NCBI GenBank assembly: GCA_023053545.1 | Contig: JAKZAN010000039.1 | Coordinates: forward strand, 511,001-575,000 | DNA length: 64,000 nt | Source: Lepidurus packardi | Taxonomy: Eukaryota; Arthropoda; Branchiopoda; Notostraca; Triopsidae | Direction: 5' to 3' | Shown here: piece by piece, positions 19,101-64,000 of the stretch | How the letters are laid out: every line of letters begins with the position of its first letter | Numbering within the stretch: position 1 is the stretch's first letter | Program-made: the position numbers and the translations under genes | Notes under the pieces: generated by a model | What the model was told of the DNA's origin: nothing | What the model saw: only the letters and a program-made list of their open reading frames with translations | The model's database searches: none

Positions 19101-20852
19101 ACGGATTGAATTAATTCCTTACGGACTGAATTAATTCCTTACGGACTGAATTAATTCCTTACGGATTGAATTGATTCCTTACGGACCAAATTAATTCCTT
19201 AGGGAATTAATTAATTCCTTACGGATTGAATTAATTCCTTACAGAATGAATTAATTTTTAACGGAATGAATTAATTCCTTAAGGACCAAATTAATTCCTT
19301 AGAGATTGAATTAATTCCTTACGGGCGGAATTTATTTCTTACGGACTGCATTAATACATTACGGACTGAACTAGTTCCTTACAAACATAATAAATTCCTT
19401 ACGGAATGAATTAATTCCTTACGGACTGAATTAATTCCTTATGGATTGAATTAATTCCTTACGGACTGAATTAATTCTTAACGGTATGAATTAATTCCTT
19501 ACGTGCTAAATTAATTTTTTACGGACTGAATTAATTCCTTACGGACTGAATTATTTCCTTACTTACTGAATTAATTCCTTACGGACTGAATTAATTAATT
19601 AATGGACTGAATTAATTCATTACGGATTGAATTAATTCCTTACGGACTGAATTAATTAATTAATGGACTGAAATAATTCATTACGGATTGAATTAATTCC
19701 TTACGGACTGAATTAATTCCTTACGGATTGAATTAATTCCTTACGGATTGAATTAATTCCTTACGGACTGAATTAATTCCTTACGGACTGAATTAATTCC
19801 TTACGGATTGAATTGATTCCTTACGGACCAAATTAATTCCTTAGGGAATTAATTAATTCCTTCGTGCTGAATTAATTTCTCACGGACTGAATTAATACAT
19901 TACGGACTGAATTAGTTCCTTACGGACTGAATTAGTTCCTTACGGATTGAATTAATTCTTTACGGATAGAATTAATTCCTTACGGACTGAATTAATTCCT
20001 TAATGACTGAATTAATTCCTTACGGGCTGAATTACTTTCTTACGGACTGAATTAATTCCTTACGGACTGAATTAATTCCTAACGGACTGAATTAATTCCT
20101 TACGGACTGAATTAATTCCTTACGGATTGAATTAATTCCTTACCGACTGAAATAATTCCTTACGGACTGAATTATTTCCTTACGGATTGAATTAATTCAT
20201 TACAGACTGAATTAATTCCTTACGGAATGAATTAATTCCTTACGGAATGAATTAATTCCTTACGGGCTGAATTAATTAATTAATGGACTGAATTGATTCA
20301 TTACGGATTGAATTAATTCCTTACGGACTGAATTAATTACTTAAGGACTGAATTAATTCCTTACGGACTTAATCAATTCCTTACGGACTTAATTAATAAC
20401 TTACGGACTTAATTATTTCCTTACGGACTGAATTAATTCTTTACGGACTGAATAAATTCCTTACGGAATTAATAAATTCCTTACGGAATTAATTAATTCC
20501 TTAAGGATTGAATAAATTCATTAGGATTGAATGAATTCCTTACTTACTGAATTAGTTCCTTACGGAATGAATTAATTCTTTACGGATAGAATTAATTCCT
20601 TACGGACTGAATTAATTCCTTAATGACTGAATTAATTCCTTACGGGCTGAATTACTTTCTTACGGACTGAATTAATTCCTTACGGACTGAATTAATTCCT
20701 AACGGACTGAATTAATTCCTTACGGACTGAATTAATTCATCACGGACTGAATTAATTCTTTACGCACTGAATTAATTCCTTACGTACTGAATTAATTAAT
20801 TAATGGACTGAATTAATTCCTTACGGACTTAATCAATTCCTTACGGACTTAA
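13101..20852. repeat. 20-bp satellite array, domain beta
   Basis: Same 20-bp monomer, with a different set of variants from about 13,100 onward: GGATTGAATTAATTCC, GGACCAAATTAATTCC, TTAGGGAATTAATTAATT, TACTAACATAATAAATT, GGACTGCATTAATACATT, and a 21-bp unit containing AATTAATTAATTAATGGACT. The alpha-type TTTTATTAATT and 12-bp units disappear. This variant set then continues between and beyond all the retrotransposon insertions to the end of the window. Blocks marked by TTCCTTTCGGAGTGAATT recur at about 13,181, 14,283, 14,945, 16,125, 17,891 and 18,533. No gene seen. Confidence 0.95.
17411..17500. other. Empty-site counterpart of the element A insertion
   Basis: The satellite here reads continuously through the same variant monomers that flank element A: TAATGGACTGAATT, then GGACTTAATCAATTCC, then TTACGGACTTAATT, then AATTCCTTACTGAGTG. 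In the A copies the retrotransposon separates the last two. The 13-bp segment TACGGACTTAATT at 17,454-17,466 occurs once here and on both sides of element A copy 2. A second, slightly changed empty site (TACGGACTTCATT) is at 30,697-30,709. Confidence 0.8.
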
Positions 20853-20854
20853 TT
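20842..20854. repeat. Target-site duplication, left copy, element A1
   Basis: TACGGACTTAATT abuts the poly-T tract. The last two T may belong to the tail. The right copy at 25,768-25,780 reads TACGGAATTAATT, one mismatch. The variant GGACTTAATT on the left supports a true duplication, because most monomers read GGACTGAATT. Confidence 0.7.
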
Positions 20855-20864
20855 TTTTTTTTTT

Positions 20865-20897
20865 AATTTAATCTCAGCGTGAGCAAAGCTCTTTGCC
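20865..20897 (-). other. 3'-terminal stem-loop of element A1
   Basis: On the plus strand GAGC (20,881-20,884), AAA, GCTC (20,888-20,891), followed by TTGCC. As RNA this is GGCAAA-GAGC-UUU-GCUC-ACGC about 20 nt before the poly-A. It aligns in position with hairpins in families B and C, where a GGCAA box also precedes the stem. The reverse transcriptase may recognise this structure, as in other stringent LINEs; that role is inferred. Confidence 0.55.
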
Positions 20898-20983
20898 GAT
20901 ATTTATTTTCTTTCTTTCCAATTTTCTGTTTTACAATGTTATCACTATTTAAACTTTAAATCAATGGGCTTTCCTCTAAATGA

Positions 20984-23900
20984 CTAGAATAGTGCCCTCC
21001 CTTGTTTGTATATTTCGCGGGAGCTGTTTATGAAACTTTCAACTGCTGCAAAGATCTTCGGGTTTGTTAGAATGTTTTGCATATTGAAGTGAACTTTTTC
21101 TTTCGATAGTTTTTGAAGAAGGATTGCTCTTGGTTTGTTTAGCCACCTGCAATGGTAGAGAATGTGTTTGAGGTCTTGAGAACTTTGAGCGTAGCACGGG
21201 CAGAAAGGGTTGTCAGTCTTCTTTATACGATGGAGAAAAGCCAAGGAAGGATAGTGTGAACAGCGAAGTTTTATCAGGGTATAAATTGTGTGTCTGTTTA
21301 AGTTTAATTTGCAAATGGGTGAGGATTCAGGAGTAATTCCTAAACTTAACAATGTTGAAGTTTTTTTAGTCCAATTTTCCACCCATTTTTGTTTGAATAT
21401 ACTTTTAACTGTTTTTGGGATCTCTTGGGTTTCCCGATTACAGTTAAACTGGGAGACCAATTGTTCGATTTGATATGAGCAAGTTGCGTATGAGGAATGA
21501 CGAGGAGGATCCATGTTTCGGAGGTCTGCTGCATTTCTTGTTAAACCGAATCTAATCAGCCTTTCTTCGACGGCCAACTTCAGTGGAGGGATTCCAGTCT
21601 CTACTTCTAGGGTTGATGTTGGAGACGTTTTAAATGCTCCGGATATTATTAACAAGGCTTGGCGATGAAGGTATTTTAAAGTGGGGGATTTTTCGAACTT
21701 GAAGTTTGACCAGGCTGGTAGGACGTAAAATATCTTAGAATAAAGTGTAGCTAAAAGCAGAGATCTCAGCTGGTTAGTTCTTATAGCTGGAATATTATGG
21801 GACAAGTTTCGTATTTTCAGAATAATAAAATTTCCTTCGGCTGCAAGTCGATTAACATGCGATTTCCAGGATAGCTTTGTATCAAATAAGAGGCCAAGAT
21901 AACGAACGTGGGGTCTTGGGATGATGGTGATATCACCCCATGTAAGGGGCGTATCGTCAGGGTATCTTTTCTTTGAGAAATGTATCAGCTCTGTCTTGCT
22001 TTGACTGAAAGTGAGGTGAACACTAAGACTCCATTTCTCAAGTGCTTTCAGGGCATTTTGAAGCATCCTGATATTTTTGATATCCTGATTCCTGATTATT
22101 TTGCATCCTGAAGCATCCTGATTATTTTGATATCCTGATATTTTGACACTTTCCCAGATGATCCGCTGATAGCTAAAAGTAAGTCATCAGCGAAAGCCTG
22201 CACACGGATGCGTTTGCTTTTGAGAAGTTTTAATGCTCCATCTATATATGTGACGAACAAAATTGGTGATAGGGGTGATCCTTGAGGGAGTCCTTTGCTG
22301 ACATGAAAAGTTTGGCTCCTGTGGTTACCATGCTGAACGTAGATTGTGCGATCTGCTAAAAAGTTTTGAAGCCAATCTGCGACGTAACCTTTTTCTTTTT
22401 CAGTATTTGGATTAACTTTCTATGATTAACATTATCAAAGGCTCCTTCAATGTCCAATAGAAGCGCTGTTGTAGTTTGATGTTTGTCGAATCCATTTAGG
22501 ATTTGATTACTCAGGGCAAGCATAGCATCTGTGGTCGATTTCTTTGGACGAAAACCCTACTGATAGTCAGAGAGAAGCGATTTTTGTTCCATATGATCTA
22601 ATATTTTTAATGCAATCGTTTTTTCTAAAACTTTTCCTAGTGTGGAAAGTAAGGTTATGGGGCTGAAACTCTTATGTGTTTTATAGTCTGCCTTTTTGGG
22701 TTTAGGAACAGGGAGCACTTTTCCGATTTTCCAGGCGGTAGGAAAATACGAGTATTTTAAGGAGGCGTTAAAAATATTTACCACTATATTTCCGATTACT
22801 TTCCAGGTGTTTTTTAACACTATAGGCTGTATGGCATCATCTCCTGGTGCTTTAATATTAGGTAAAGCTCGCACGAGTGTTTTGAGCTCCCGACAGGATA
22901 TTTCTGGATATCTTTGCTGTCTTCTGAAATTGCATTTTCTTACGTTCTGATAGTTCGAAGTTTGAGTAGCTGAGAAGAACTTTTGCGCCAAAAAATTTAG
23001 TTTGTTAATTTCGTCCTCGAAAACGTCCCCTTGTTGATTTAACAGTTGTTCCAGGCTGTTTTTCGTTGTTTTTTCACGGTTTGCTCTATTCAATCCCCAG
23101 AGTATTCTGTTGTCAGGAGTTTTTAGTTTCTGTTCCCAATATAAATTTTTTGCTACACGGCATTTGTTTGTGTACAAATTTCTCATAGTTTTCCATCGGG
23201 CTTGGTCTTGTACAGTTCTTGAATTTTTATAAATCCTTAGGCTTTTAGCTGTTTCTTTCCGGAGGTTTGCTAGTTCTTTGGACCACCAGGGATTTTCTCT
23301 TTTGGAAAGATTTGTTTTGGGGATATTAAGTTCCATTGCTTTATGTAGTGCTTGCGTTAGATTTTTAACTGTGTCGTCTAATTCCTCGGGGCCCGATATG
23401 TCATGATATTTTATTTTACTTTTTTTCAGTTCCTCATTGAGAGTATTGTTTAATTTAATCCAGTCCACTTTATTATAGCTCCATATCCATGATTTAATTG
23501 ATTCCTTATGGACATATATTTCTATTATAATTGCTTCGTGGTCCGATTGGTTGATAAAATCTGGGCTTTTAAAAATGGAGTGTCCGACGAAAGGTAGGCA
23601 CTGGGTTGTAGCAAACGTTAGATCTAAAGTGGATGAATTGCCTCTTTCGTTCAAGAAAGTAGAAAAGTTATGTTCATTTAAGATGGTCAAATTGTGGGTT
23701 GTGGTAAATTCGAACAGTTGGGTGCCTGGGATATCCGGGCTATGGTCTTCCCAGGCCCAGTGGTGAGCGTTCATGTCTCCACTGAAGATAAGACGTGGTG
23801 AAATTTTTGAATATTTCTCCCAAATTTCTTGTAGTAATTTTTCTAAATCTTGGGTGAATCGTCTGTATACGCCGATTACTATAAATTCTGGGCGGTTATG

Positions 23901-24209
23901 ACCTGGGAGTATTTTGATAACCGAATAAAGTTCATTTGTTTCAAGAATTTTCATATAGGAGGTGTCTTGGTTTTTGAAAGTTGCGATCCCCTTATATTCG
24001 CCATCTGGGGAATAAGTTACAAAGTTGCGAAAGGTTTTGCCAGGGGATAAGTTTTGTGGGGGTTCTAAGATAAATACGGCTTCAAAGTCACATTCGCTGG
24101 ATAAATTTATAGTTTCTTGTAGCTGCTGAAAATTTTTCCTGATATTGTGGATAAATATTTTAATCGGTTTATCGTTCATTTCAATTTGGTTATTGATTGT
24201 GATGACCAT
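20984..24209 (-). pseudogene. Element A1 ORF2: endonuclease-reverse transcriptase, disrupted
   Basis: This would nick target DNA and reverse-transcribe the element RNA. The first open segment (24,209-22,557, 550 codons) has an APE-type endonuclease with E49 in ILEPPQ, D145 and N147 in SGDMNAHH, and S222-D223-H224. The linker and the first RT motifs follow. It stops at a TAG (22,557-22,559) in place of the Trp codon found in families B and C (SDMQWGFR). Beyond it the frame reopens, then shifts near 22,410. Sequence coding for LPQGSPLSP and FADD (about 22,183-22,194) is recognisable in another frame. A roughly 50-bp internal duplication near 22,061-22,140 shifts the frame again into a 360-codon tail (22,066-20,984) with RT-thumb sequence and C289-X-C291-X9-H301-X4-C306. 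Its start overlaps the ORF1 end by 20 nt. It cannot encode a working enzyme as it stands. Confidence 0.92.
22061..22145. repeat. Local direct duplication inside A1 RT
   Basis: AAGCATCCTGAT followed by TTTTGATATCCTGAT occurs at about 22,061 and again at about 22,111, with slight differences between the two copies. The extra material is about 50 bp, not a multiple of three, and lies just after the FADD motif in coding order. Element B has no such insertion. It is also present in A2 at about 32,536-32,620. Confidence 0.75.
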
Positions 24210-25580
24210 CCCTGGTGCAAGTTCCTTTGGCTGCCAGGTTCTTTGTGTTTTCTTGGGGGTTTTTTGGTCCTCTTTTCTTTATTTCCTCCGCTCGAATAAG
24301 GCAAATTCTATCGTAAGATGCGTGACTACCCTGGCAATTTGCGCATTTAAATTGGCTGCTTTGGCACTCCTTGGTTGAATGTTGCTCGCTTGCGCACTTG
24401 GCGCATTTACTGGATCTGCTTGTACACTTTTGTGCGAAGTGGCCATACGCTTGACAGCGAAAGCATTGGATGACCAGGGGTGGATGGGCCTCTTCAAGTT
24501 GAACTGTTCTATTGAAAGCAAATAGGGCTCCTACCTTCAGTAGCGTGTTTTTTTCCTCCTGGGAGTTGCAAGTGTACATGATAGATCCATATGCTTTGTC
24601 ACTGGTTGGGTTCAGCCATTTAATTTGATTTGGCGAAAAGGTAATTTCTAGGATTGAGTTTTTCCTTGTCAAATGTTGGCTAATTTCTGTTTCTTGTTTG
24701 TCTTTCGGCAGTTGGTGGATAACGATGTTAAGATTAGGGCGATGTTCAATTATTTTAACCCGACCGAGATTTTTCAAATTTGCAGTTTGGATGGCAGTTC
24801 CTGCCTTTATTTTGTCCTCTTTGGACTTGAAAGTGATGAAAAGCTTTCCTTCTTCCTTCTTTGTGGCCAGGACTGGGCTTGGTAAGCTTGGTTCAATTTT
24901 TGCCAAGTCTTCGTCGATGAGCTCAAGTAATTCCTTTCTCGGTATGGTTTTTCCCCATTTTTCTGGATCTTCTTGCTGGATGATCAATATTTCTTCAGGG
25001 AGTGTGGATTTGGTTGGTTTTGGGGTGTTAGCCCGAGCTGTATTCCCTAGTTGATCTGGAGCGAGGTTTGTGGTCCGAGGAGTTTTTTTCGGATAGCTTC
25101 TGACCAGGTTTCTTTCACCTGTGTTGGGGCCTCTTGAGAGCGGTTCACTTTGTGGAGTTCATCTTTAAGAGACTGAACTTCCTCAGTTAAGGAGATAATT
25201 TGCCCTATAAGCAGATCTTGATTTTCCTTGAGGGTCTTGTTTGATTCAATTATTATGGTTTGGTTTCCGTGCAGCAATCGGATTTGCGATAGCAGAAGAT
25301 CAAGGGTTTTGGAGTGGTATTCCTCATCTGAGACTGAATGTTTACGGGAAGTTTCTTCGCGCATAGGAGGCATTGTTCTTTTCCGGGATTGAGAGTTTTT
25401 TTTGTGACGACAGTCAGGACACGTTGTAGCCAGGTGGTGGTCTTTTGTAAAGCTTTCGCTACACATTGTACAGCGAAGTATGAGCGGTGGGTTTTTAACT
25501 TGGCTTTCAACCCGGTTGGCAAGGTCACCAGGTTCACCACGTGTGCCCTGCGCAAGGCAGGGCACTGGCTCCCCGTCCAT
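24190..25580 (-). pseudogene. Element A1 ORF1: gag-like nucleic-acid-binding protein, two frames
   Basis: This would coat and chaperone the element RNA. The first segment (25,580-25,047, 177 codons from an ATG) has a C37-X2-C40-X13-C54-X2-C57 zinc motif and a leucine-rich coiled coil at about 92-146. The second (24,987-24,190 as a minimum, open further upstream) contains a region similar to element C ORF1 and three knuckles: C175-X2-C-X4-H-X4-C, C195-X2-C-X4-H-X4-C, C215-X2-C-X3-H-X6-C. Compared with element C ORF1 these are the two halves of one protein. They are offset by -1 at a run of seven A (sense CGAAAAAAACTCC, about 25,084-25,090). That is either a one-base deletion or a slippery site. 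Copy 2 has the same run. Confidence 0.88.
25543..25565 (-). other. 9-bp hairpin 16 nt after the A1 ORF1 start codon
   Basis: GTGCCCTGC (25,543-25,551) pairs perfectly with GCAGGGCAC (25,557-25,565) around a 5-nt loop. In the RNA it begins 16 nt after the A of the ORF1 AUG at 25,580. The same hairpin is in A2 at 36,018-36,040. A hairpin in this position can favour initiation at the upstream AUG; that role is inference. Confidence 0.6.
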
Positions 25581-25767
25581 CTGCCTGATAATCTAGCCAA
25601 TTAATCCAAACCAGTGAAACAAAAAACAAAAGCTGAAAACAGTGTAACTTTTGAGAGTCTAATGGGATCTTTCCAGATTAATCCGTTTCTTAACAACAGT
25701 GATATGGATTTCACAGAAAGACGCCTCTGCTTTCACAGAGCGATTTGACACACGTCTGCCTTGACAC
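25581..25767 (-). promoter_or_regulatory. 5' UTR of element A1
   Basis: 187 bp between the satellite junction and the ORF1 ATG. LINEs usually carry an internal promoter here, but I recognise no motif. Whether 25,767 is the true 5' end is unknown. Copy 2 cannot settle this, because it is a duplicate of the same insertion. Confidence 0.4.
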
Positions 25768-28700
25768 TACGGAATTAATTAATTCCTTACTGAGTGAATT
25801 AATTCCTTACGGACTTAATTAATAACTTACGGACTTAATTATTTCCTTACGGACTGAATTAATTCTTTACGGACTGAATCAAATCCTTACGGACTGAATT
25901 AATTTATTACGGAATTAATAAATTCCTTACGGAATTAATAAATTCCTTACGGAATTAATAAATTCCTTACGGAATTAATTAATTCCTTAAGGATTGAATA
26001 AATTCATTAGGATTGAATGAATTCCTTACTTACTGAATTAGTTCCTTACGGAATGAATTAATTCCTTACTTACTGAATTAGTTCCTTACGGAATGAATTA
26101 ATTCCTTACGGACGGAATGAATTCCTTACGGACTGAATTATTTCCTTACGGACTGAATTTATTCCTTACAGACTTAATTAATTTATTACGTACTGAATTA
26201 ATTCCTTACGGACTTAATTAATTCCTTACAGATTGAATTCATACCATACGGACTGAATTAATTCCTTTGGGAAATGAATTAATTCCTTACGGACGTAAAT
26301 AATTCCTTACGGAATGAATTAATTCCTTACGGACTGAATTAATTCCTTACAGACTTAATTAATTTATTACGGACTGAATTAATTCATTACCTACTTAATT
26401 AATTCCTTACAGACTTAATTAACTCCTTACGCACTGAATTGATTCCTTACGGACGTAAATAATTCCTTACGGAATGAATTAATTCCTTACGGACTGAATT
26501 TATTCCTTACAGACTTAATTAATTATTTACGGAATGAATTAAATCCTTACGGACTGAATTAATTATTTACGTACTGAATTAATTAATTAATGGACTGAAT
26601 TAATTCATTACGGATTGTTTTAATTCCTTACGGACTGAATTAATTCCTTACGGATTTAATTAATTATTTACGGATTGAATTAATTCCTTACGGACTGAAT
26701 TAATTCCTTACGGACTGAATTAATTCCTTACCTACTGAATCAATTCCTTACGGACATAATTAATTCCTTACGGACTGAATTAATTCCTTACGGGCTGAAT
26801 TAATTTCTTACGGACTGAATTAATTACTTACAGACTTAATTAATTCCTAACGGACAGAATTAATTCCTTACGGACTGAATTATTTCATTACGGACTGAAT
26901 TAATTCATTACGGACTTAATTAATTCCTTACAGACTGAATTAATTCCTTACGGACTAAATTAAATCCTTACGGACTTAATAATTCATTACGGACTGAATT
27001 AATTCATTACAGACTGAATTAATTCCTTACGGACTGAATGAATTCCTTACGGACCGAATTAATTCCTTTGGGAATGAATTAATTCCTTACATGCTGAATT
27101 AATTTCTTACGGACTGAATGAATTCCTTACGGACCGAATTAATTCCTTTGGGAATGAAATAATTCCTTACATGCTGAATTAATTTCTTACGGACTGAATT
27201 AATTCCTTACTTTCTGAATTAATTCCTTACGGACTGAATTAGTTCCTAACGGACTGAATTAATTCCTTCCGGACTGAATTAATTCCTTACGGACTGAATT
27301 AATTCCTTACGGACTGAATTAATTCATTAATGGACTGAATTAATTCCTTACGGATTGAATTAATTCCTTACGGACTGAATTAATTCCTTACGGACTGAAT
27401 TAATTCCCTACGGATTGAATTAATTCCTTACGGATTGAATTAATTCCTTACGGACTGAATTAATTCCTTACGGACTGAATTAATTCCTTACGGATTGAAT
27501 TGATTCCTTACGGACCAAATTAATTCCTTAGGGAATTAATTAATTCCTTACGGGCTGACATAATTTCTCACGGACTGAATTAATACATTACGGACTGAAT
27601 TAGTTCCTTACGGACTGAATTAGTTCCTTACGGACTGAATTAGTTCCTTACGGACTGAATTAATTCTTAACGGATAGAATTATTTCCTTACGGACTGAAT
27701 TAATTCCTTAATGAATGAATTAATTCCTTACGGGCTGAATTACTTTCTTACGGACTGAATTAATTCCTTACGGACTGAATTAATTCCTAACGGACTGAAT
27801 TAATTCCTTACGGACTGAATTATTTCCTTACGGACTGAATTTATTCCTTACAGACTTAATTAATTATTTACGGAATGAATTAAATCCTTACGGACTGAAT
27901 TAATTATTTACGTACTGAATTAATTAATTAATGGACTGAATTAATTCATTACGGATTGTTTTAATTCCTTACGGACTGAATTAATTCCTTACGGATTTAA
28001 TTAATTATTTACGGATTGAATTAATTCCTTACGGACTGAATTAATTCCTTACGGACTGAATTAATTCCTTATGGATTGAATTAATTCCTTACGGATTGAA
28101 TAAATTCCTTACGGACTGAATTAATTCCTTACGGACTGAATTAATTCCTTACGGACTGAATAAATTCCTTACGGACTGAATTAATTAATTAATGGACTGA
28201 GTTAATTCCTTACGGACTGAATCAATTCCTTACGGACTTAATTAATTCCTTTCGGAGTGAATTAATTCCTTACGGACTGAATTAACTCATTACGGATTGA
28301 ATTAATTCCTTACGGACTGAATTAATTCCTTACGGACTGAATAAATTCCTTACGGACTGAATTAATTAATTAATGGACTGAGTTAATTCCTTACGGACTG
28401 AATTAATTCCTTACGGACTGAATTAATTCCTTACAGATTGAATTAATTCCTTACGGACTGAATTAATTCCTTACGGACTGAATTAATTCCTTACGGACTG
28501 AATTAATTCCTTACGGATTTAATTAATTATTTACGGATTGAATTAATTCCTTACGGACTGAATTAGTTCCTTACGGACTGAATTAATTCCTTACGGATTG
28601 AATTAATTCCTTACGGATTGAATTAATTCCTTACGGACTGAATTAATTAATTAATGGACTGAGTTAATTCCTTACGGACTGAATCAATTCCTTACGGACT

Positions 28701-31330: not shown

Positions 31331-31339
31331 TTTTTTTTT

Positions 31340-45748: not shown

Positions 45749-45749
45749 C

Positions 45750-54053: not shown

Positions 54054-54076
54054 TTTTTTTTTTTTTTTTTTTTTTT

Positions 54077-54109: not shown

Positions 54110-54309
54110 TCAAGCTTTATTAAATATGCCTTCTGTACATTGTCAATAATTTAAAAAATTGTTAAAGGGGTGATGCTTCTGCATTACCCTTTAACATAGC
54201 ACATAGAACAAAAGGGTGGAGAGGGGGATAGGACACAAAGGGGGTGGAGGGGGGGACACATGACAAGGAGGGTGGAGGGGGGGAGACAGCAGGGCAAAAA
54301 CTCTGCTAA
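54110..54309 (-). other. 3' UTR of element B2 with G-rich plus strand
   Basis: Same G-run-rich segment as in B1, at about 54,214-54,289 on the plus strand. No ORF. Confidence 0.6.
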
Positions 54310-57300
54310 CTAGAACACCCTTATGCAACTTTGATTCGCTTCGTGTAGAAAAATAGTAAGTGTGTTGAAAGCTTTAGGGCTGGTTAGCAATTCCTTTGCG
54401 TTAAAATGGATTTTTAACTTGTTTAGCTTCTGGAGTAGTTGGGCACGTTGCTTGTTGAGTCGACGACAGTGGAACAGTAGATGCGGTAGGTCCTGTCTAG
54501 TTCTATCCTGGCATGGACATAGGTCCGAGTCGGATTTTTGGATTCGTTGGAGGTAGCTCCTGGTTGGGAAGTGTGTGGTTCTCACTTGAATCATCTTTGA
54601 GATGATTGTCCTGGGAAGGTGGACGTACACTATTCCTTGACGAGATGGTCCATGGGTCAGATCCTGTAACGGGCTCTGAGAATTATTCCAACGTTCCTTC
54701 CATTGACTCATCGTTGCTTCTTCTATCCAACCACGAGCTACCTTTATGGAATCTGGGCTTGACTTCCAGACGACGGCTGCAAGTACTCTTGCCCTCTCCA
54801 AACAGGACGTGTATCGTCTGTGCCTGGGTACCTCTTCGGAAACGGGCCATTTGTCCCAGTATCTTGAAGCGTAGTGGCGGAGCACTAATCTCTCGAGGTA
54901 CAAATCGAATGGTGGTAGGCCCGATTCTATTTCCAAAGCAACGGTTGGGGTTGTTTTGAGGGCTCCTGTTATTGCTAACAGGCCCTTTCTATACAGTTGG
55001 ATAATGGGTCGTAGCTTAGCCAAAGAGATGTTGCACCAGGCTGGGAAAGCATAGCTTAGTTTTGAGAGGACCGTCGTCTGAAAAAGAGTACGGACCTGAC
55101 GGCAAGTGACAGCTCTTGAAAATCTCATCACTTTGTGTATCCTTTGCAGGGTTAAATTGCATTGGACTACCAGACGGTTAACATGGTGTGTCCATGTGAG
55201 ACTATTGTCATAAACTAGACCGAGGTACCTGACCGCATCCTTAGAATGGACTATCGTACCGTCCCAAACGAGGGGTGTGGCTTCTGGTTTTTGCTTTTTG
55301 GAAAAGTGAATTAATTCCGTCTTTTCTTTCGCAAACTGTAGTCGGTGCTTCTTAGCCCATTTTTCGAGCGCAGCCAAGTTGTTGCTCAGAAGCTTGACAT
55401 TTTTCTCGCTGGAGGTGCTCGATGTAAAAATCAACAGGTCATCCGCGAAAGCTTGCATGTCGATCTTCTTCCGTTTTATGCATCCCAACGCTCCATCAAT
55501 GTACATCAAGAATAATATCGGTGATAGGGGAGAGCCTTGCGGAACTCCCTTAATAATCGAGACGACATCGCTTTTTTCTTCACCAAAAACCACATATGCT
55601 CTCCGTTTCTCGAGAAAACTCTTAATCCATCTGGTCACTTGTGATGGAACTTTCAGCGCCCAAAGCTCTTCAACTAACACTTCGTGGTTTACATTGTCAA
55701 ATGCTCCGGAAATGTCCAACAGTAAGGCTGAAAGGACTTTCCCTTTATCGAAGCTATCCAAAATCGCATCGCTGAAATTCACCATGGCATCCACTGTTGA
55801 TCGCCCTGGTCTAAAACCCCATTGCATATCCGACAACTTATCGTTATCTTCTAGAAACAGCTTTAACCGATTTGCTATTGCCTTTTCTAGTATTTTCCCC
55901 AATACCGGTAGCAGGGAGATTGGTCGAAAACTCTTGATTGACGTGTAGCTCTGCTTCCCAGGCTTAGGGAGCGTAATAACTTTAGCAGTCTTCCATGCTT
56001 TGGGGTGATATTCCAGGGCCAGAGAGGCATTATACAAGCTAACCACTGTTGGGCCAATAACACTCCATAGGGATTTAATGATGATTGCTTGGATTTCATC
56101 CACTCCAGCAGCTTTACATGGTTGGAGTCCCTCGATTATCTCAGAAATTTCCTCCCTGGTGAAAGGGGCTTCATAAAAAGAACCTCTGGTTTTCCGAGCT
56201 TTGTACAGGGAAGAACGGCGTCGTAGGGAATCTTCTTGCGAATTTACCGGGGCCCCGTCCAGCAGGTGTGTCGCCACAAAATTTAATTTCGTAATCGCAT
56301 CTGGGAAAGGCGTACCATCATTTCATCTCAGGAATTCGAGCTTGTTATTATTGTAGACCCTCATTTGCCGGTCTAGGTTCCAAATAACCCTGCTGTCTGG
56401 TGTATTAAGTTGTTCAGACCAATACGTATTCCTGAATTCCCTGGTTTTCGCTCTATAAGCATTCCTGGTTTCTTTCCATAACTTTTCCCTCTCAGAGCCC
56501 CCGTGTGTACGGTACTGTCTGAGCACAGCCGCTGTTTGTTTACGAAGGATTTGGAGCTCCCTATTCCACCAAGGATTGTTCCTGTTATTTGCGGATTTTT
56601 TGGGGATACTTTTCGTCATTTCCGTCTGGATGATTGTTGTAAGCCTGCCAACGGCTATGTCCAAAGCGATAGGGCTCGAAAGATCTGCGAACTTAGGTGA
56701 TGCCTTCAGTACCTCACCCCGTACGTTAGAGGCGAGTTCTTTCCAATTGACCCTGCTGTAGCACCATGTTGTCTTTGCCGTGTGGGTTTGCAAAAGATTA
56801 AGGGAAATCACTATGGCTTTGTGATCTGATTCATTGTAATACTCTGCTTCATCCAGGACGTGCCAATCTGTGGTCTTGATTAATTGCGGGGAACACCACG
56901 TGAGGTCTAAAGTCGATTTGTGCCCACGCTCGTTGTGAAATGTTGGGACATTCCATTCATTAATCAAGTCCAAGTGATGTTCTGTGGCAAAGTCGTACAG
57001 TTGTATTCCTGGTATATCTGAAGCTTTATCCTCCCACCGCCAGTGATGGGCATTGAAATCTCCTGTTACTATCACAGGGTCGTGTTGGTTGTAATTTCCC
57101 CAGGCTTCTTCAAGAAGCGACGCGGTGTTAGCTGTGTGCCTTCTATATATTGCAAGTATGGATATCGCTCGTCCTCCTGGGTTTGTCAACCTGATTTTCG
57201 CGTATAGTTCCTTAATTTCAAGGACATAGAAACGGCTGTCTGGCTTACGGAGCAGCATCACTCCTTCATAAGCAAGAGACGGAGTAATAACGTCAAATCC

Positions 57301-57444
57301 CATGATACGTGATTGAGTGTAGTTCTGTGGCGGCTCCAATAAAATAACCAAGGTTACATCTTCTCTGTTTGCCTCTCTAGCAACTTCAGTAAGTTGAGAT
57401 GTGCTTTTACGAATGTTCTGCACAATCAATCGTACCAATCCCAT
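54310..57444 (-). pseudogene. Element B2 ORF2: endonuclease-reverse transcriptase with a premature stop
   Basis: Same 1045-codon frame as B1, but codon 374 is TGA (56,323-56,325) where B1 has CGA (Arg). Read on the coding strand this is a C-to-T change at a CpG. It separates the endonuclease plus linker (57,444-56,323, 373 residues) from the RT and C-terminal part. The RT part stays open down to 54,310, with an internal Met at 56,277. All catalytic motifs seen in B1 are present. Two missense differences lie in the C-terminal half (His for Asn in the RHYASRYW segment, Thr for Asn near the end). Confidence 0.93.
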
Positions 57445-57447
57445 TGT

Positions 57448-57492
57448 CTATTTGCTCCTTGACGCGGACTTCTTGCCCTTTGCGTCTATCTC
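57448..57492 (-). pseudogene. Element B2 ORF1 remnant (last 14 codons)
   Basis: As in B1, with Ala for Val at one codon (GCG against GTG). The stop TAG is followed by ACA and then the ORF2 ATG in the same frame. Confidence 0.85.
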
Positions 57493-57493
57493 C

Positions 57494-58426
57494 TACGGAC
57501 TGAATTAATTCCTTACGGACTGAATTAATTCCTTACGGATTGAATTAATTCCTTACGGACTGAATGAATTCTTAACGTTATGAATTAATTCCTTACGGAC
57601 CGAATTAATTCCTTACGTGCTGAATTAATTTCTTACGGACTGAATTAATTCCTTACGGACTGAATTAATTCCTTACTTACTGATTTAATTCCTTACGGAC
57701 TGAATTAATTAATTGATGGACTGAATTAATTCATTACGGATTGAATTAATTCCTTACGGACTGAATTAGTTCCTTACGGACTGAATTAATTCTTTACGGA
57801 TAGAATTAATTCCTTACGGACTGAATTAATTCCTTAATGAATGAATTAATTCCTTACGGGCTGAATTACTTTCTTACGGACTGAATTAATTCCTTACGGA
57901 CTGAATTAATTCCTAACGGACTGAATTAATTCCTTACGGACTGAATTAATTCCTTCCGGATTGAATTAATTCTTTACGGACTGAAATAATTCCTTACGGA
58001 CTGAATTAATTCTTTACGGAGTGAATTAATTCCTTACAGACTGAATTAATTCCTTATGGACTGAATTAATTACTTAAGGACTGAATTAATTCCTTACGGA
58101 TTGAATTAATTCCATACGGACTGAATTAATTCCTTACGGATTGAATTAATTCCTTACGTACTGAATTAATTAATTAATGGACTGAATTAATTCCTTACGG
58201 ACTGAATCAATTCCTTACGGAATTAATTAATTCCTTACGGACTGAATTAATTCCTTACGGACTGAATTTATTCCTTAAGTACTGAATTAATTCCTTACGG
58301 ATTGAATTAATTCCTTACAGAATGAATTAATTCTTAACGGAATGAATTAATTCTTTACGGACCAAATTAATTCCTTAGAGATTGAATTAATTCCTTACGG
58401 GCTGAATTTATTTCTTACGGACTGCA
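57494..58426. repeat. Satellite array, domain beta, between B2 and C
   Basis: About 933 bp of 20-bp monomers. The first about 400 bp repeats the segment after B1, including the unusual GGACTGAATGAATTCTTAACG and TTGATGGACTG units. Similarity ends at about 57,900, against about 46,155 after B1. The last monomer reads GGACTGCATT before the poly-T of element C. No gene seen. Confidence 0.95.
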
Positions 58427-58428
58427 TT
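58416..58428. repeat. Target-site duplication, left copy, element C
   Basis: TACGGACTGCATT, with an identical right copy at 63,370-63,382. The C in GGACTGCATT is a minority variant, so matching flanks are good evidence of a real duplication. The last two T may come from the tail. Confidence 0.85.
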
Positions 58429-58440
58429 TTTTTTTTTTTT

Positions 58441-58477
58441 CAATTTAAAGCCGGCGTAGGCTTGAAAGCCTGTTGCC
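58441..58477 (-). other. 3'-terminal stem-loop of element C
   Basis: Plus strand AGGCT (58,458-58,462), TGAA, AGCCT (58,467-58,471), then GTTGCC. As RNA: GGCAAC-AGGCU-UUCA-AGCCU-ACGCC, just before the poly-A. Stem sequence differs from B and A but pairing is kept. Confidence 0.65.
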
Positions 58478-58529
58478 AAACTATGTATTTGTCGTATCCT
58501 TGCAAGATATTATATTATAAAAACAGATA

Positions 58530-61500
58530 CTAATAACAGGGTTGGATGGATGGGATGGGGGTCAGGAGAGAAGGGTGTAAGGGGGGTAGAAAAAGTACTG
58601 AAATGATTGGGTGAGCTTCTCGTCCTTGGCTGGTTGCTGAATTGAAAGTCTGTTTGGCCTCGTTAAGGAAAAGTTTCACCGCTGGGAATAGTTTTGGGTC
58701 CATGAGAAAGTTCTGAGGTTTAAAGTGCAGTTTGAGGGAACTGTGGGCTCTAATCAACTTCGCTCTGCACTTGTTTAACCAACGACAATGTATAAAAACG
58801 TGGTGAAGGTCTTGGATAACCATTTCCGGGCATGGGCAAAGCTTAGTGGGCGAACGGCCAATTCTATACAAATAGCTCAATGTTGGGAAGTGCGTGGATC
58901 GGACCTGTATAATCGTTGCAATGGTATTTCTTGGTAGTCTTGAGTTGATGATTCCATGAAGAGATGGAACAGCATTCAAATCTTTTAAAGGGCTATTAGT
59001 TGATTCCCATCCATTTTGCCACGTTTTAATAAGCGCTTTTTTAATTTCTAGTAGGGCTTCTTTTTGGGTTGCGGGTGGGCTTGACCAGATTGCCCTGGCC
59101 AGGCATCTTGTCCTTTCTTCACAGGATGCATACATCTTGTGTCTCTGGGTTTCTACCTGTATTGGCCATTTCTGCCAGTTCTTATGCGCATAGTGTCGTA
59201 GAAGTGTCCATTTTAACTTTAAGTTTAATGGTAGGACGCCTGTATCAACCTCTAGGGCTATGGTTGGGGTTGAAGGAAGTGCTCCTGAAATTAGCAGAAG
59301 GCCTCTTCGGTATATTTGGGTGATAGGCCGAAGCCTGGTTTCCGAGGCATTGCACCAAGCTGGGTATCCATAGGTCAACTTTGAAACGATAGTTGCATGG
59401 AAGAGAGTGCGTACTTGGGAGCATGTGATGGACTTCGAAATTTTGATCAACCGGTGGATCCTCTGAAGGGTGTTATTACATTGAGCTGCTAGTAGGGAAA
59501 TATGGCTTTGCCATGTGAGCCTGTTATCATAGATTACGCCCAGGTATCTCACTGCCTCCTTTGGGTAGATAGTTGTCGTTCCCCATATTAGCGGGGCAAC
59601 CTCTTCTGTTCTTTTTCTTGAGAAGTGTATCAACTCGGTCTTGTCCCTGGAGAATTCTAGCTCAAACTTCCTTCCCCATTTTTCTAGTGAGCATAGGTTG
59701 TTCGCTAAAAGTCTTGTGTTCCATTCGCTGGACGAACCCGAAGTGTGGAGGAGCAAATCATCGGCGAAGGCACCGATGTGAATTCGTTTCCGGTTTATTA
59801 CACTTAGCGCCCCGTTGATATATAACAAAAAGATGATAGGTGATATTGGAGATCCTTGCGGTACACCTTTTTTTATGGCATATGTTTGACTGTTTTCCGT
59901 TCCGTGTACGACGAATGCTCTCCTGTCTTGGAGGAAGCTCTGTATCCACTTGACAATCTGTGAGGGCACCTTTAGTTTCTTCATTTCGGCAACCAGTTTT
60001 TGATGTACTACGTTGTCAAATGCTCCTTTAATATCAAGTAGGAGGGCTGTTTGAACTTTGCCTCTGTCAAAGCTGTTTAGTACGGAGTTACTGAGTTCCA
60101 TGAGGGCATCTGTTGTACCTCTCCCTAGTCTAAAACCCCATTGCATATCCGACAGCTTGTTGTTGTTTTCAAGGAAAGTTTGCAGTCTGGAAGCTACTGC
60201 TTTTTCAAGAATTTTTCCAAGAATAGGTAAGAGGGCGATTGGCCGGAAACTTTTTATTGAGCTGTAGTCCTTCTTGCCGGGTTTCGGTAAGGGCAGTACT
60301 TTCGCTATCTTCCACAAAGAGGGATAGTGACCAAAGGTGAGAGAGGCGTTAAAGATTTTGACCACGGTTGCAGAAATGGTCGTCCAAATTTCCTGAAGCA
60401 CGATCGCTTGGATACCATCCATACCAGCGGCTTTTTTTGAATGTAAGTTGTTCAAGATATTGGAAATTTCTTCTATAGTGAAGTCTGATGAGATTTCACA
60501 TTGGGTAGATCTCGTGAAATGATGCTTACAACGGGGACCTTGGTATGTTTTTGTTGGGGCGTCCCACATTTCTCCGACAATAAGGTGTTCAGCGATGAAA
60601 TTGAGCCTAGCGACTGGGTTATCAAATGGCGTACCATCCTCTTGTTTAAGTTGCTGAACAAGTGACTTGCTGTTCTCGTTACGTAATGTACGATTAAGAT
60701 TCCAGATGACCTTATTCTCGGTGGTAGCCATCTTGTCTGCCCAGTACTTGTCCCGACGCTCTCTAGTCTTGGTCCTGTAGTGATTTCTTGACGCTTTCCA
60801 TAGGGTCTCTCTTCTTGTGCCTCCATAAATTCGATAAGCGCGTAGTGCTTTCGCCGCTTGTTTACGGAGTTCCGCTAGTTCTAAGTTCCACCAGGGATTA
60901 TTCCGGTTTTTACTGGTAAAGGTGGGTATGTTTTGGTTCATAGCATTTTGTATGATAGTTGTCAGTTTATAAGCAGCTGCATCGATGTCCTGTGTGTTGG
61001 AGAGCTTTGTAAAGGAGTTTTTAGAGTTTTTTAGTCCCAAAGCCGTGTCATGGCGTGCTTTCTCCCAGTTGGCCTTTTGGTAGTGCCAGCTTTTGTTCGA
61101 TACTTTGTTGGTGTTGTGTATGAGGTTTAGAGAAATCACTATGGCTTTGTGGTCGGATTCGTTGTAGTATTTTGCTTCATCAAGGACGTGCCAGTCTGTG
61201 ATTGCAGTTAATTGAGGGGAACACCACGTGAGATCGATTGTCGATTTATGTCCACGTTCGTTGTGGAAAGTTGGGACATTCCATTGGTTTATCAAGTCCC
61301 AGTGCTGTTCTGTAGCGAAGTCATATAGTTGTGTTCCCGATGAGTCTGGTGTTTTATCCTCCCACTGCCAATGATGAGCATTGAAATCTCCTGTGATGAT
61401 TACTGGGTCCTGTTGATTGTACTTTCCCCAGGCTTCTTGAAGAAGCGACGTCGTGTTAACAGTATGTCTTCTGTAAATTGCGAGTAGGGATATTGCTCGG

Positions 61501-61772
61501 CCTTGTTGATTTCCCAGTCTGATTTTTGCGTACAGTTCCTTTATTTCAATGACATGGAAAGGGCTGTCTGGCTTACGAAGGAGCATTACTCCCTCATAAG
61601 CAAGAGATGTTGTAATGACGTCAAAACCTAGGATGTGTGATTGAGTATAGTGCTGTGGTGGTTCTAGAACAATAACCAGGGTTATATCCTCACTGTTGGC
61701 CTCTCTTGCCACTTCGTTAAGTTGGGATGTACTTTTCCGGATATTCTGTACAATCAGTCGCACTATTCCCAT
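58530..61772 (-). CDS. Element C ORF2: endonuclease-reverse transcriptase, intact
   Basis: 1080 residues without interruption. The endonuclease covers about 1-225: E37 in VLEPPQ, Y100, D129 and N131 in GDFNAHH, D180, S206-D207-H208. The RT core includes PIALLPILGK, QWGFRLGR (Leu where B has Pro), D580 in LLLDIKGAFD, GVPQGSPISP, and F-A-D671-D672. The post-RT region has TPTIALEVDTGVLPL and the C-terminal motif CPC-X9-H-X4-C. No RNase H is evident. The last roughly 35 residues, Pro- and Leu-rich, extend beyond the end of B and are encoded by the G-rich plus-strand stretch at 58,540-58,590. The ATG follows the ORF1 stop after a single codon, in the same frame. It would nick the satellite and prime cDNA synthesis there. 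Confidence 0.96.
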   Translation of the reverse strand: MGIVRLIVQNIRKSTSQLNEVAREANSEDITLVIVLEPPQHYTQSHILGFDVITTSLAYEGVMLLRKPDSPFHVIEIKELYAKIRLGNQQGRAISLLAIYRRHTVNTTSLLQEAWGKYNQQDPVIITGDFNAHHWQWEDKTPDSSGTQLYDFATEQHWDLINQWNVPTFHNERGHKSTIDLTWCSPQLTAITDWHVLDEAKYYNESDHKAIVISLNLIHNTNKVSNKSWHYQKANWEKARHDTALGLKNSKNSFTKLSNTQDIDAAAYKLTTIIQNAMNQNIPTFTSKNRNNPWWNLELAELRKQAAKALRAYRIYGGTRRETLWKASRNHYRTKTRERRDKYWADKMATTENKVIWNLNRTLRNENSKSLVQQLKQEDGTPFDNPVARLNFIAEHLIVGEMWDAPTKTYQGPRCKHHFTRSTQCEISSDFTIEEISNILNNLHSKKAAGMDGIQAIVLQEIWTTISATVVKIFNASLTFGHYPSLWKIAKVLPLPKPGKKDYSSIKSFRPIALLPILGKILEKAVASRLQTFLENNNKLSDMQWGFRLGRGTTDALMELSNSVLNSFDRGKVQTALLLDIKGAFDNVVHQKLVAEMKKLKVPSQIVKWIQSFLQDRRAFVVHGTENSQTYAIKKGVPQGSPISPIIFLLYINGALSVINRKRIHIGAFADDLLLHTSGSSSEWNTRLLANNLCSLEKWGRKFELEFSRDKTELIHFSRKRTEEVAPLIWGTTTIYPKEAVRYLGVIYDNRLTWQSHISLLAAQCNNTLQRIHRLIKISKSITCSQVRTLFHATIVSKLTYGYPAWCNASETRLRPITQIYRRGLLLISGALPSTPTIALEVDTGVLPLNLKLKWTLLRHYAHKNWQKWPIQVETQRHKMYASCEERTRCLARAIWSSPPATQKEALLEIKKALIKTWQNGWESTNSPLKDLNAVPSLHGIINSRLPRNTIATIIQVRSTHFPTLSYLYRIGRSPTKLCPCPEMVIQDLHHVFIHCRWLNKCRAKLIRAHSSLKLHFKPQNFLMDPKLFPAVKLFLNEAKQTFNSATSQGREAHPIISVLFLPPLHPSLLTPIPSIQPCY

Positions 61773-61775
61773 AAG

Positions 61776-63146
61776 CTACTTGCTCTTTGTCGCGGACTTC
61801 TTGTCCTTTGCTTCTACTTCCTTCAGTCGGGTAGGACAGTTTGAGTCAAAAGCGTAGTGTTGGTCTTTGCAATTTGCACATTTCTTCATTGCCTCTGTGC
61901 ATTTCCTTGTGTCGTGGTTTTTGGCACATTTTCCGCAGGTTGGAGTCTTCTCGCGGCAAGACGCTGACATGTGGCCATAGGCTTGACAATTATAGCACTG
62001 AAGGATCTGGGGGTGTTTGACGTTTTCCACTTGTACTATGCGGTTGAAAGCAAAGATGGCTCCCACTTCTATCAACCGTTTCTTCTCTTCTTCTGATTTA
62101 CAAGTATACTTGATGGAACCGTATGCTTTTTTTACATCCGGGTTTAGCCATTTCGCTTGATCCGCTTGGAAGACGACTTCCAGGTTTGAGTTTTTTTCGG
62201 AGATGTGTTTGCATATTTCTGGTAGACTCTCGTCCTTTGGTAGCTGGTGAATAATCATCGTCAGGTTTGGTTGCCTCTTTACTACCTTTACCGGACCCAA
62301 ATTTGGCAATGTCGCCGATTCAAAAATGTTTTCAGAAGTTGTTTTTTCCTCTATACTCTTGTAGGTGAGTGCGAGTCTGTTCGTTCTGGTCTTTCCTACT
62401 AGGACAGGTTTCGGTGCTTTTGGGTATGCTTTGGACAGGTCATCTTCGATTGTCTTCAGAAGATCTTTCCTGGGAATGACCGCGTTTCTCTTAGTCTCGT
62501 CTTCTTGCTGAATGAATAACGTTAGACCATCGTCGTCTTGAGCGCTTGAATCGTGGCTGGCAGGGGTGACACTTGGGGTGCTTGTCACCTTGATTGATGG
62601 TTTGGTTCTCTTCCTTTGGACAACTTGTGTCCAAGTGCTTGTTTGAGCCGGAGACGAGGAGACTTGGTTTGTGGCGTTAATTTGCGTAGTTGAGAAGGAA
62701 GGTTTCATGTGTTCTTCCTGTAGATCCTTGCGGAGTCCAATAACTTCCGCTTTTAATGCCATGACTTCCTGGATTAGATTCTCGTTGCTCTCTTTAAGTG
62801 ATCGAAGTGTCGACAGGATGACATCCATGGTAGATACTTGGGTTGGATCTTCGATTGAGAAACACCTTCTGCGATACGTCTGATCATTTGGGGGGGAGGG
62901 TAGGGGACGTTTCTGACCCAGAATTGGGTTTGCAGTCGCTTTTTTGTCACGACATGGTTTGCAGTTCTTGGCTGCAGGTTTGTCTTTTAGAAACAGGTCA
63001 CCACAGGTTTGGCATTTCACTTGGGGTTGTGATGTGACTGTTGGGTTGGGCGAGTCTATTTCAATGTTTTCAAGCACACGGGAAGGGCCTGGTTGAGAAA
63101 ACCGGATCCCCCCTTTAACGGGCGAGTTTTCAGGTGTCCTTAACAT
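61776..63146 (-). CDS. Element C ORF1: gag-like RNA-binding protein, intact
   Basis: 456 residues from the first ATG (63,146). The frame is open 9 codons further to a TTG, which I do not take as the start; the ATG has A at -3. Order: C45-X2-C48-X13-C62-X2-C65 zinc motif; basic Pro-rich stretch; coiled coil at about 105-146 (leucine-rich, would mediate oligomerisation); Ser/Thr-rich linker; a conserved middle domain shared with A (VIPRKDLL, PNLTMIIHQLPKD, WLNPDVKKAYGSIKYTC); then three knuckles, C384-X2-C-X4-H-X4-C, C404-X2-C-X3-H-X4-C and C423-X2-C-X3-H-X6-C. The tail is basic. LINE ORF1 proteins of this type bind element RNA and form the particle with ORF2. The N-terminal C4 motif is unusual to me. 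Confidence 0.93.
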   Translation of the reverse strand: MLRTPENSPVKGGIRFSQPGPSRVLENIEIDSPNPTVTSQPQVKCQTCGDLFLKDKPAAKNCKPCRDKKATANPILGQKRPLPSPPNDQTYRRRCFSIEDPTQVSTMDVILSTLRSLKESNENLIQEVMALKAEVIGLRKDLQEEHMKPSFSTTQINATNQVSSSPAQTSTWTQVVQRKRTKPSIKVTSTPSVTPASHDSSAQDDDGLTLFIQQEDETKRNAVIPRKDLLKTIEDDLSKAYPKAPKPVLVGKTRTNRLALTYKSIEEKTTSENIFESATLPNLGPVKVVKRQPNLTMIIHQLPKDESLPEICKHISEKNSNLEVVFQADQAKWLNPDVKKAYGSIKYTCKSEEEKKRLIEVGAIFAFNRIVQVENVKHPQILQCYNCQAYGHMSASCREKTPTCGKCAKNHDTRKCTEAMKKCANCKDQHYAFDSNCPTRLKEVEAKDKKSATKSK

Positions 63147-63369
63147 ATTGTCACTGGGCAAAGCCCAAAACAATCACTTAAGAGGTCCTCGTTCATGCAC
63201 AAATATGCAAATAAACGTTATGAAAAATTCCACAAAGGTGCAACAAGCACTTAACTAAACCTGGTAACGAGAACTACCTAAACAAAACTTTGGGTACACC
63301 AATAGAATTACAAAAACAGGAGCGCACTTCAAAAAACGACCGAGCTTCCCGCCAGTCCGCACAGTGTCC
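63147..63369 (-). promoter_or_regulatory. 5' UTR of element C
   Basis: 223 bp upstream of ORF1. A 5-bp hairpin (TGGGC, AAA, GCCCA on the plus strand, 63,155-63,167) lies 8 nt before the ATG. An internal promoter would be expected here but no motif is recognised. Confidence 0.45.
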
Positions 63370-64000
63370 TACGGACTGCATTAATACATTACGGACTGAA
63401 TTAGTTCCTTACGGACTGAATTAATTCCTTATTAACATAATAAATTCCTTACGGAATGAATTAATTCCTTACGGACTGAATTAATTCCTTACGGATTGAA
63501 TTAATTCCTTACGGACTGAATTAATTCTTAACGGTATGAATTAATTCCTTACGGACCGAATTAATACCTTTGGGAATGAACTAATTCCTTACGTGCTGAA
63601 TTAATTTCTTACGGAATGAATTAATTCCTTACGGACTGAATTAATTCCTAACGGACTGAATTAATTCCTTACGGACTGAATTAATTCCTTCCGGATTGAA
63701 TTAATTCTTTACGGACTGAAATAATTCCTTACGGACTGAATTAATTCTTTACGGAGTGAATTAATTCCTTACAGACTGAATTAATTCCTTACGGACTGAA
63801 TTAATTACTTAAGGACTGAACTAATTCCTTACGGATTGAATTAATTCCTTACGGACTTAATTAATTCCTTACGGACTGAATTAATCCCTTACGGACTGAG
63901 TTAATTCCATACGGACTGAATTAATTCCTTACGGATTGAATTAATTCCTTACGTACTGAATTAATTAATTAATGGACTGAATTAATTCCTTACGGACTGA
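63370..64000. repeat. Satellite array, domain beta, after element C
   Basis: 20-bp monomers to the window end. The order (GCATTAATACATT, TTAGTTCC, TTATTAACATAATAAATT, TTAACGGTATG, CCTTTGGGAATG, CCATACGG) follows that at about 46,311-46,920 closely, which is the uninterrupted version of the same block. Confidence 0.95.

Follow-up and report, generated by a model that had tools for sequence, protein, structure and literature searches.

Three related LINE families share one insertion phase and strand in a 20-bp satellite of Lepidurus packardi, and also insert outside it

The window, a stretch of 64,000 nucleotides from Lepidurus packardi, carries a 20-bp satellite, TACGGACTGAATTAATTCCT, in six stretches (1..20852 on the + strand, 25768-31328, 36243-42306, 45750-54051, 57494-58426 and 63370-64000), between which lie five LINE copies. 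All 2058 scored 20-bp windows of these segments (at least 15 matches to the monomer) are in + strand orientation. A search of the literature for the letters of the monomer found none. On contig C1, exact satellite dimers start at 13957481 of 14048370 and reach towards the contig end; that end may reflect a break in the assembly. A TTAGG-type search gave 550 matches, scattered among those listed, which extend into contig C1.

The LINE copies belong to three families and, as originally predicted, all five lie on the minus strand with poly-T directly after TACGGACT-TAA (A1, A2), TACGGACT-GAA (B1, B2) or TACGGACT-GCA (C), each run sharing its first two T with the target. Family A is represented by A1 (20853-25767, measured from the poly-T to the point where the satellite resumes), whose poly(A) tail appears as + strand poly-T at 20853-20864, and by A2 (31329-36242); A1 has an endonuclease (EN) domain, PF14529, within 22557-24209, and its ORF2 is without a single reading frame. 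B1 (42307-45749) is 5'-truncated and retains an open ORF2 of 1044 amino acids with EN and reverse transcriptase (RT), and B2 lies at 54052-57493. The copy of family C (58427-63369) is apparently full length, with a zinc-knuckle ORF1 at 61776-63173 and an EN+RT ORF2 at 58530-61772, both on the minus strand. At A1, contrary to the prediction, the satellite resumes at TACGGAAT and not at TACGGACT.

The shared site and strand of the five copies stand, but the flanks reveal segmental duplication, and the copies represent only three insertion events. A2 is a segmental duplicate of A1 at a shift of 10,475 bp, with one base different over the first 214 bases of right flank beyond the element; B2 duplicates B1 at a shift of 11,744 bp, the two being identical for 219 bases beyond 45720, of which some 190 are flank. 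Left flanks agree over 300 bp at 0.93 (L069/L070) and 1.0 (L009/L010). Target-site duplications, read by eye at the element junctions, are 12-13 bp long and some carry monomer-specific variants. On the 3' side of A1 the duplication is TACGGACTTAATT (20842..20854, + strand), with one base changed in the right copy, TACGGAATTAATT (25768..25780); TACGGACTTAATT flanks both sides of A2 and of the copy on contig C36 (L071/L089). Family C is bounded by TACGGACTGCATT, with the monomer variant GCA, on both its 3' side (58416..58428) and its 5' side (63370..63382).

The kinship of the three families, as first proposed, is borne out by an RT tree of 58 rows (mostly unlabelled database matches), in which A, B and C form one clade (100/100). 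ORF2 identity is 57.6% between B and C and about 44-46% between A and B/C, the latter over the C-terminal half and for those A copies whose frame stays open over a long stretch. A Pfam scan finds PF14529 and PF00078 in ORF2 of B and C and no RNase H in either, and among solved endonucleases TRAS1 comes nearest (1wdu, E 3.8e-8), a single pointer to possible R1-clade membership. Several of the best database matches of ORF2 have RNase H, and in one of the searches no match exceeds 31% identity. Reading frames in the flanks have, by eye, an animal-like look. The marks of an APE-type LINE are all present: EN and RT in one ORF, a poly(A) tail, target-site duplication and 5' truncation. Poly-T tails are found at element 3' ends genome-wide, with the exception of L052. 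Whilst B1 and B2 are 5'-truncated, B copies outside the window extend to a C-like 5' end, and the 5' module (5' end plus endonuclease) shows about 80% nucleotide identity between B and C, against 57% beyond it, a contrast consistent with a possible exchange of this module between the two families.

Across the genome, 38 independent insertions were counted from the 3' ends of the three families after duplicates had been collapsed by left flank or by right flank (groups L069-071; L074/075; L072/077; L009-012; L016/020/021/023; L014/017; L040-042). L023 was joined by its right flank, its left flank being no closer than background, and the joining of L014/017 was a judgement on left flanks 0.84 alike with agreeing last bases; counted separately they give 39 events. 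Short 3' fragments (L028, L054, L055, L085, L086) were retained; L026 and L083, which are without a 3' end, and the looser relatives L027, L029-L038, L056-L068 and L084 (25 loci, or 24 if L033/L034 count as one) were excluded. The poly-T at C36:373245 / C40:161348 was not counted as an insertion of its own, because its left flank repeats that of the neighbouring A copy. Ten of the 38 insertions lie inside this satellite (A 2, B 4, C 4), and all ten share one phase and one strand, as had been proposed from the window. The other 28 comprise 12 in other tandem repeats and 16 with no array at the junction as judged by TRF, so that 22/38 are in a tandem array of any kind. One B event (L014/L017), which lies in a related satellite, has the opposite strand.

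These counts tell against the central claim of the original prediction, a satellite-specialised lineage with the array as its safe harbour, taken here in the sense of strict, TRAS/SART-like targeting. Both observations that it named as speaking against it can be set beside the census: many copies do lie outside the satellite (28/38, 16 of them without a tandem array), but those inside are uniform (10/10) and not at random phases on both strands. Because the families insert elsewhere too, none of them is a satellite specialist in the true sense, and strict specialisation is refuted. What argues for some specialisation is the constant phase and strand, together with a share of 10/38 insertions in a satellite that makes up, by estimate, 5-25% of the assembly (best estimate 7-10%); tail probabilities, calculated for 10/36, are 0.0001-0.002 at 7-10%, 0.035 at 15% and 0.17 at 20%. 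The looser 3'-end relatives have 0/24 insertions in the satellite (Fisher 0.005), but they are more diverged, and old insertions may be purged by arrays. The enrichment is moderate and confounded by age, and we consider the specialist reading improbable.

Amplification of the satellite around a single ancient insertion could mimic a shared site, and duplicates are indeed many: A1/A2, B1/B2, the same flanks on contigs C36, C40 and C4, and three copies on contig C79. Nevertheless, ten events remain after collapse; their flanking monomers differ, as do their duplication variants wherever these were read. The 5' junction was read for 7/10 satellite events, and a target-site duplication fits in six. 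A non-consensus variant stands on both sides in three of these (A TACGGACTTAATT, B ACGGACTTAATT on contigs C4/C36/C40, and C TACGGACTGCATT); a B event at C30:402121 has a duplication with a single mismatch, TCTTA[G/C]TGAATT; and in the second A event and the window B event the duplication equals the consensus monomer, which is weaker proof. The seventh event, on contig C79 (L042/L098), lacks a matching duplication. A single insertion cannot have given rise to three families, which refutes this account for the phase shared between families and leaves it very improbable overall.

The original prediction also held that a shared phase and strand in three independent insertions would be unlikely by chance. 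For phase this argument is weaker, because 1719 of the 2116 TTAA sites in the window's satellite are already at the exact insertion phase. For strand, three events would agree 1 time in 4, and the argument becomes strong only genome-wide, at 10/10. An endonuclease reading nothing beyond TT/AA would need only the single TTAA of the monomer to set the phase (0.81^10 = 0.12), the strand being left to chance or to a uniform direction of replication in the arrays. In its favour, both strands carry junctions of elements left unassigned; against it, those of A, B and C lie 10/10 on one strand (2 x 0.5^10 = 0.002), and the two groups differ by Fisher 0.036 (0.015 with C1:8010899), for a post hoc grouping of few sites with contexts unread. 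We regard this simpler account as unlikely.

The junctions concerned come from a pattern census. In the main orientation, 28/43 poly-T sites near TACGGACT are at the insertion phase, 19 of these 28 belonging to the three families, and 15/43 are off-phase; in the opposite orientation 8/14 junctions are off-phase. Reversed-pattern controls gave 1+3 matches in one census run and 0+1 in another. Unassigned in-phase junctions lie on contigs C49, C102 and C168 in the main direction, and on contigs C64, C81 and C137, perhaps also at C1:8010899, in the opposite direction at the mirror-image phase. Off-phase junctions on contigs C48 and C69, displaced by 1 base and 5 bases, each lie roughly 1.1 kb from an RVT_1 match; that at C4:293929, 7 bases off-phase with two anchors 20 bp apart, has a C-like 5' end (80% identity) some 5 kb away. 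These three are probably real LINE ends, and the last may mark a relative of B and C sitting off-phase in the satellite.

The reading that we favour, with a probability of about two in three, is of one APE-type LINE lineage, made up of families A, B and C, with a loose endonuclease that takes account of bases on one side of its site as well. The ORF2 endonuclease would nick after TT, with TT/AA as the best site, and insertion would proceed by target-primed reverse transcription. Each 20-bp monomer would offer a single TT/AA site, GGACTGAATT/AATTCC, which would fix the phase; the freed ...GAATT 3' end would pair with the poly(A) tail and prime first-strand synthesis, and a second-strand nick 12-13 bp away would yield the target-site duplication. 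Because AATT/AATT is a palindrome, a TT/AA nick leaves the strand over. Outside the palindromic AATTAATT, GACTG lies on one side and CCTTA on the other, and the enzyme would accept these bases only when they run one way, thereby fixing the strand. Were the preference only TT/A, a second same-strand site in the monomer (1840 TT/A sites at the insertion phase, 1775 at CCTT/ACGG in the window's satellite) would mean that phase, too, needs further bases. The position of the nick is deduced from the junctions, and its place is blurred by poly-T. Arrays would act as large repeated targets in which insertion probably does little harm, and copies would then be multiplied by unequal exchange.

Targets elsewhere fit a motif that is loose. 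Among the 12 events in other tandem repeats, TT/AA matches both of those with the two junctions read (CTGACTT/AATT and TTACTTAATT/AATT), and three more (L045, L072/L077, L076) fit by eye when the downstream bases of the repeat unit are used. The other readable targets of TT/A type are CAGAAATT/ATTT, TTCTTTT/ATTA and GTTTTT/ATC; AAGTAT/AAGT is a T/AA target, and GCAGG/GTTT and one target inside a T run fit neither. A bolder extension, tentative and rather doubtful as a whole, is that reading beyond AATT/AATT breaks the palindrome's symmetry and makes every monomer of one satellite a one-way, one-phase hotspot, other LINEs in this genome using both sides, and that B and C kept or exchanged the 5' module, so that target choice would move together with an endonuclease block open to exchange.

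Waldo-like and other microsatellite LINEs target tandem repeats, as A, B and C do. The L1-CS LINEs of a Cuscuta satellite and TRAS/SART are precedents. In Cuscuta europaea, PMC8091179 places 91% of L1-CS elements within 10 kb of the satellite CUS-TR24, compared with 10/38 insertions inside the satellite here (22/38 in any array), the great majority of copies being satellite-associated there and not here; L1-CS belongs to a plant L1 lineage and uses two adjacent sites, whereas A, B and C use one, but in both the monomer holds a preferred nick site matching an L1-like motif. Bombyx TRAS/SART endonucleases recognise roughly 10-12 bp surrounding the nick, according to PMC7265360, and these elements resemble A, B and C in using one position and one strand of a short tandem repeat (10/10 here, with off-phase and opposite-strand junctions among unassigned elements) and in their poly(A) tail. 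TRAS/SART are, however, specific for telomeric repeats, a restriction that A, B and C lack; a repeat-specific LINE of that kind would have nearly all its copies in the one target repeat, against 10/38 here. Mammalian L1, with the cleavage site TTTTAA as quoted in PMC8091179, shares with them a poly(A) tail and, by our reading of the junctions, a TT/AA-type nick; unlike it, A, B and C have an ORF2 of another lineage, several of whose best matches carry RNase H.

Copy counts in satellites should be read with caution, as they mix transposition with array duplication. With one palindromic site of which one side is used, the satellite offers a simple test case for how LINE endonucleases read around the nick, and the findings suggest that a short, loose endonuclease preference, repeated by the monomer, can look like satellite specialisation.

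The window satellite is a 20-bp repeat (TACGGACTGAATTAATTCCT) that keeps a single strand orientation from end to end and is broken up by five minus-strand LINE copies of three families, A (A1 and A2), B (B1 and B2) and C; the source assembly comprises 108.6 Mb in 344 contigs. At each junction TACGGACT is followed by TAA, GAA or GCA and then by poly-T, the complement of a poly(A) tail. The original prediction of one exact site and one orientation within the satellite holds for all five copies, and the predicted resumption of the satellite at a common sequence (TACGGACT) is seen beyond A2, B1, B2 and C but not beyond A1, where it restarts at TACGGAAT. ORF2 of B (1044 aa) and of C (1080 aa) carries endonuclease and RT domains within one frame; an endonuclease domain is detected in family A, and the A copies in the window have no single open ORF2 frame. 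A1 and A2 have common flanks, as do B1 and B2, so each pair is a segmental duplicate and the five copies represent three insertion events. On contig C36 (224-247 kb) an A-B-B arrangement has flanks matching the A-A-B-B of the window (contig C30), and is either a duplicated array or an alternative haplotype.

Insertions were sought genome-wide with approximately 400 bases from the 3' end of each family, followed by flank reading, and duplicates were merged by their left flank or, for one B group (loci L099-L102), by an identical right flank. This left 38 independent insertions that retain the 3' end (A 12, B 11, C 15), 10 of which lie in window-type satellite (A 2, B 4, C 4). In all ten, the poly-T was found at the identical monomer position and on the identical strand, the result of a tabulation specified beforehand. 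The 5' junction was read for seven (A 2, B 3, C 2), and a target duplication of 12-13 bp fits six of these: in three, both copies of the duplication bear a non-consensus variant (A TACGGACTTAATT, B ACGGACTTAATT, C TACGGACTGCATT), the B event at C30:402121 has a single mismatch (TCTTA[G/C]TGAATT), and the second A event and the window B event have the consensus monomer, which is weaker proof of duplication. The event on contig C79 (L042/L098) has no matching duplication, its two sides reading GGATTTAATT and GGACTGAATT.

Copies outside the satellite are many (28/38), the outcome named in advance as counting against a satellite-specialised lineage. By TRF, 12 of the 38 lie in other tandem arrays, namely a 10-bp TAAACCAGTT repeat (four A insertions: L072, L073, L076 and L085), AT runs (two), a TTCATGAATTACTGACTTAA repeat (two), a AATTAATTAGGGGCTTAATT repeat (two), a 92-bp array (one) and an 18-37-bp array (one), and 16 show no such array at the insertion point. 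At L072/L092 the flanks on either side run in opposite directions of the 10-bp repeat. Two further 20-bp satellites (L053, L014/L017, L044 and L045), which by eye look like ~70% relatives of the window satellite, take B and C insertions. The assembly contains 30,830 exact 40-base satellite dimers and, at 158-866 bp per dimer as measured locally, the satellite is estimated to total 4.9-26.7 Mb, with a best estimate of 7-10% of the assembly; ten insertions in 38 are then an approximately three-fold enrichment, and not clearly an enrichment should the satellite make up as much as 20%. The 24 looser 3'-end relatives all lie outside the satellite (Fisher 0.005 against A/B/C), but these are more diverged than the A, B and C copies and old insertions may be lost from arrays, so that age confounds the enrichment.

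The phase could arise from the nick preference alone, since 1719 of the 2116 TTAA sites in the window satellite lie at the insertion phase; from TTAA alone, the chance of ten in ten at that phase is 0.81^10 = 0.12. As a TT/AA preference would suffice, the phase is poor evidence for recognition of the satellite as such. Were the preference merely for TT/A, CCTT/ACGG on the same strand would be an equally common second site (1775, against 1840 at the insertion phase), and the A, B and C satellite insertions leave it unused. Among the 12 events in other tandem repeats, as judged by eye, two with both sides read fit TT/AA (CTGACTT/AATT and TTACTTAATT/AATT), and L045, L072/L077 and L076 do so provided that the downstream bases come from the repeat unit; the target of L014/L017 is TT/A (CAGAAATT/ATTT), and the remainder are T/A or ambiguous.

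The strand is a different matter, because AATT/AATT is palindromic and a TT/AA preference predicts equal use of both strands, under which ten in ten on one strand has a probability of 0.002. A family-independent census of T-runs following TACGGACT gave 57 matches at 43 sites, with 28 at the insertion phase: 19 A/B/C copies, two derived from an A flank, and seven unassigned junctions on contigs C49, C102 (five, probably duplicates) and C168. The mirror census of A-runs preceding TACGGACT, which detects the opposite orientation, gave 19 matches at 14 sites, six of them at the mirror-image phase (C64; C81, two; C137, two; C1:8010899). Reversed-pattern controls gave four matches and one match, respectively. 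At C49 and C64 an RVT_1 match lies ~1.1 kb off, on the side expected from a LINE 3' end. The palindrome thus seems open to use from both sides, whereas A, B and C take one; the strand difference between A/B/C and the unassigned in-phase junctions, on few sites grouped post hoc, is suggestive (Fisher 0.036, or 0.015 counting C1:8010899). Off-phase sites make up 15/43 and 8/14 of the two censuses. An RVT_1 match lies ~1.1 kb from those on C48 (one base off) and C69 (five off). At C4:293929 (seven off) and at two sites on C68 (one base off), a pair of anchors spaced by 20 bp places the junction inside satellite. About 5 kb from C4:293929 (to ~C4:298983) is a 5' end with 80% identity to the C one, so this junction may belong to a relative of B and C departing from the phase rule. 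One B event, L014/L017, in a related satellite, is inserted on the other strand.

As predicted, the three families are related, forming one clade with 100/100 support in an RT tree with 58 rows. The sole significant match of the C endonuclease part among solved structures is TRAS1 (E 3.8e-8). In 100-residue windows the A endonuclease shares only 27-46% identity with its B and C counterparts, yet the target is the same. Between B and C the 5' end and endonuclease are ~80% identical (window 45041-45700 in B, 61113-61772 in C), and nucleotide identity is 81% (521/641) up to ORF2 codon 215 and 57% (1409/2479) past it. At fourfold-type sites 45/80 are identical before this break against 72/198 beyond (Fisher 0.003, with the break chosen from the data), and the drop is not significant in a free-breakpoint shuffle test (133/2000); from these comparisons, exchange of a 5' module bearing the endonuclease is possible. 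A C-type 5' end at 78-81% is present at 13 more places (C155, C16, C5, C48, C75, C291, C2, C1 and C4), with no B or C 3' end nearby among the matches listed, and these would represent further families with a similar 5' end. LINE fragments related to A, B and C (L030-L038 and L058-L068), though elsewhere diverged from B and C, were seen by eye to share a hairpin-like 3' end in which GGCGTAGGCT is matched by an AGCCT or CGCCT arm.

L1-CS LINEs are described as inserting at two adjacent, L1-like sites in a plant satellite monomer, with 91% of them associated with the satellite (Vondrak et al., PMC8091179), and SART/TRAS elements insert at a fixed position and strand in telomeric repeats, with endonucleases that read ~10-12 bp and whose exchange shifts target choice (PMC7265360). 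TTAGG-type triplets are frequent genome-wide in L. packardi (550 matches against 9 in the control) and, among the matches listed, scattered inside contig C1. A, B and C work like the L1-CS and SART/TRAS systems, but differ in lacking near-exclusive targeting. The observation of a shared site and strand stands, and the reading of these families as satellite specialists does not; the best-supported explanation is a loose endonuclease whose TT/AA preference would give A, B and C their phase and which, by reading bases on one side of the nick, would give them their strand.
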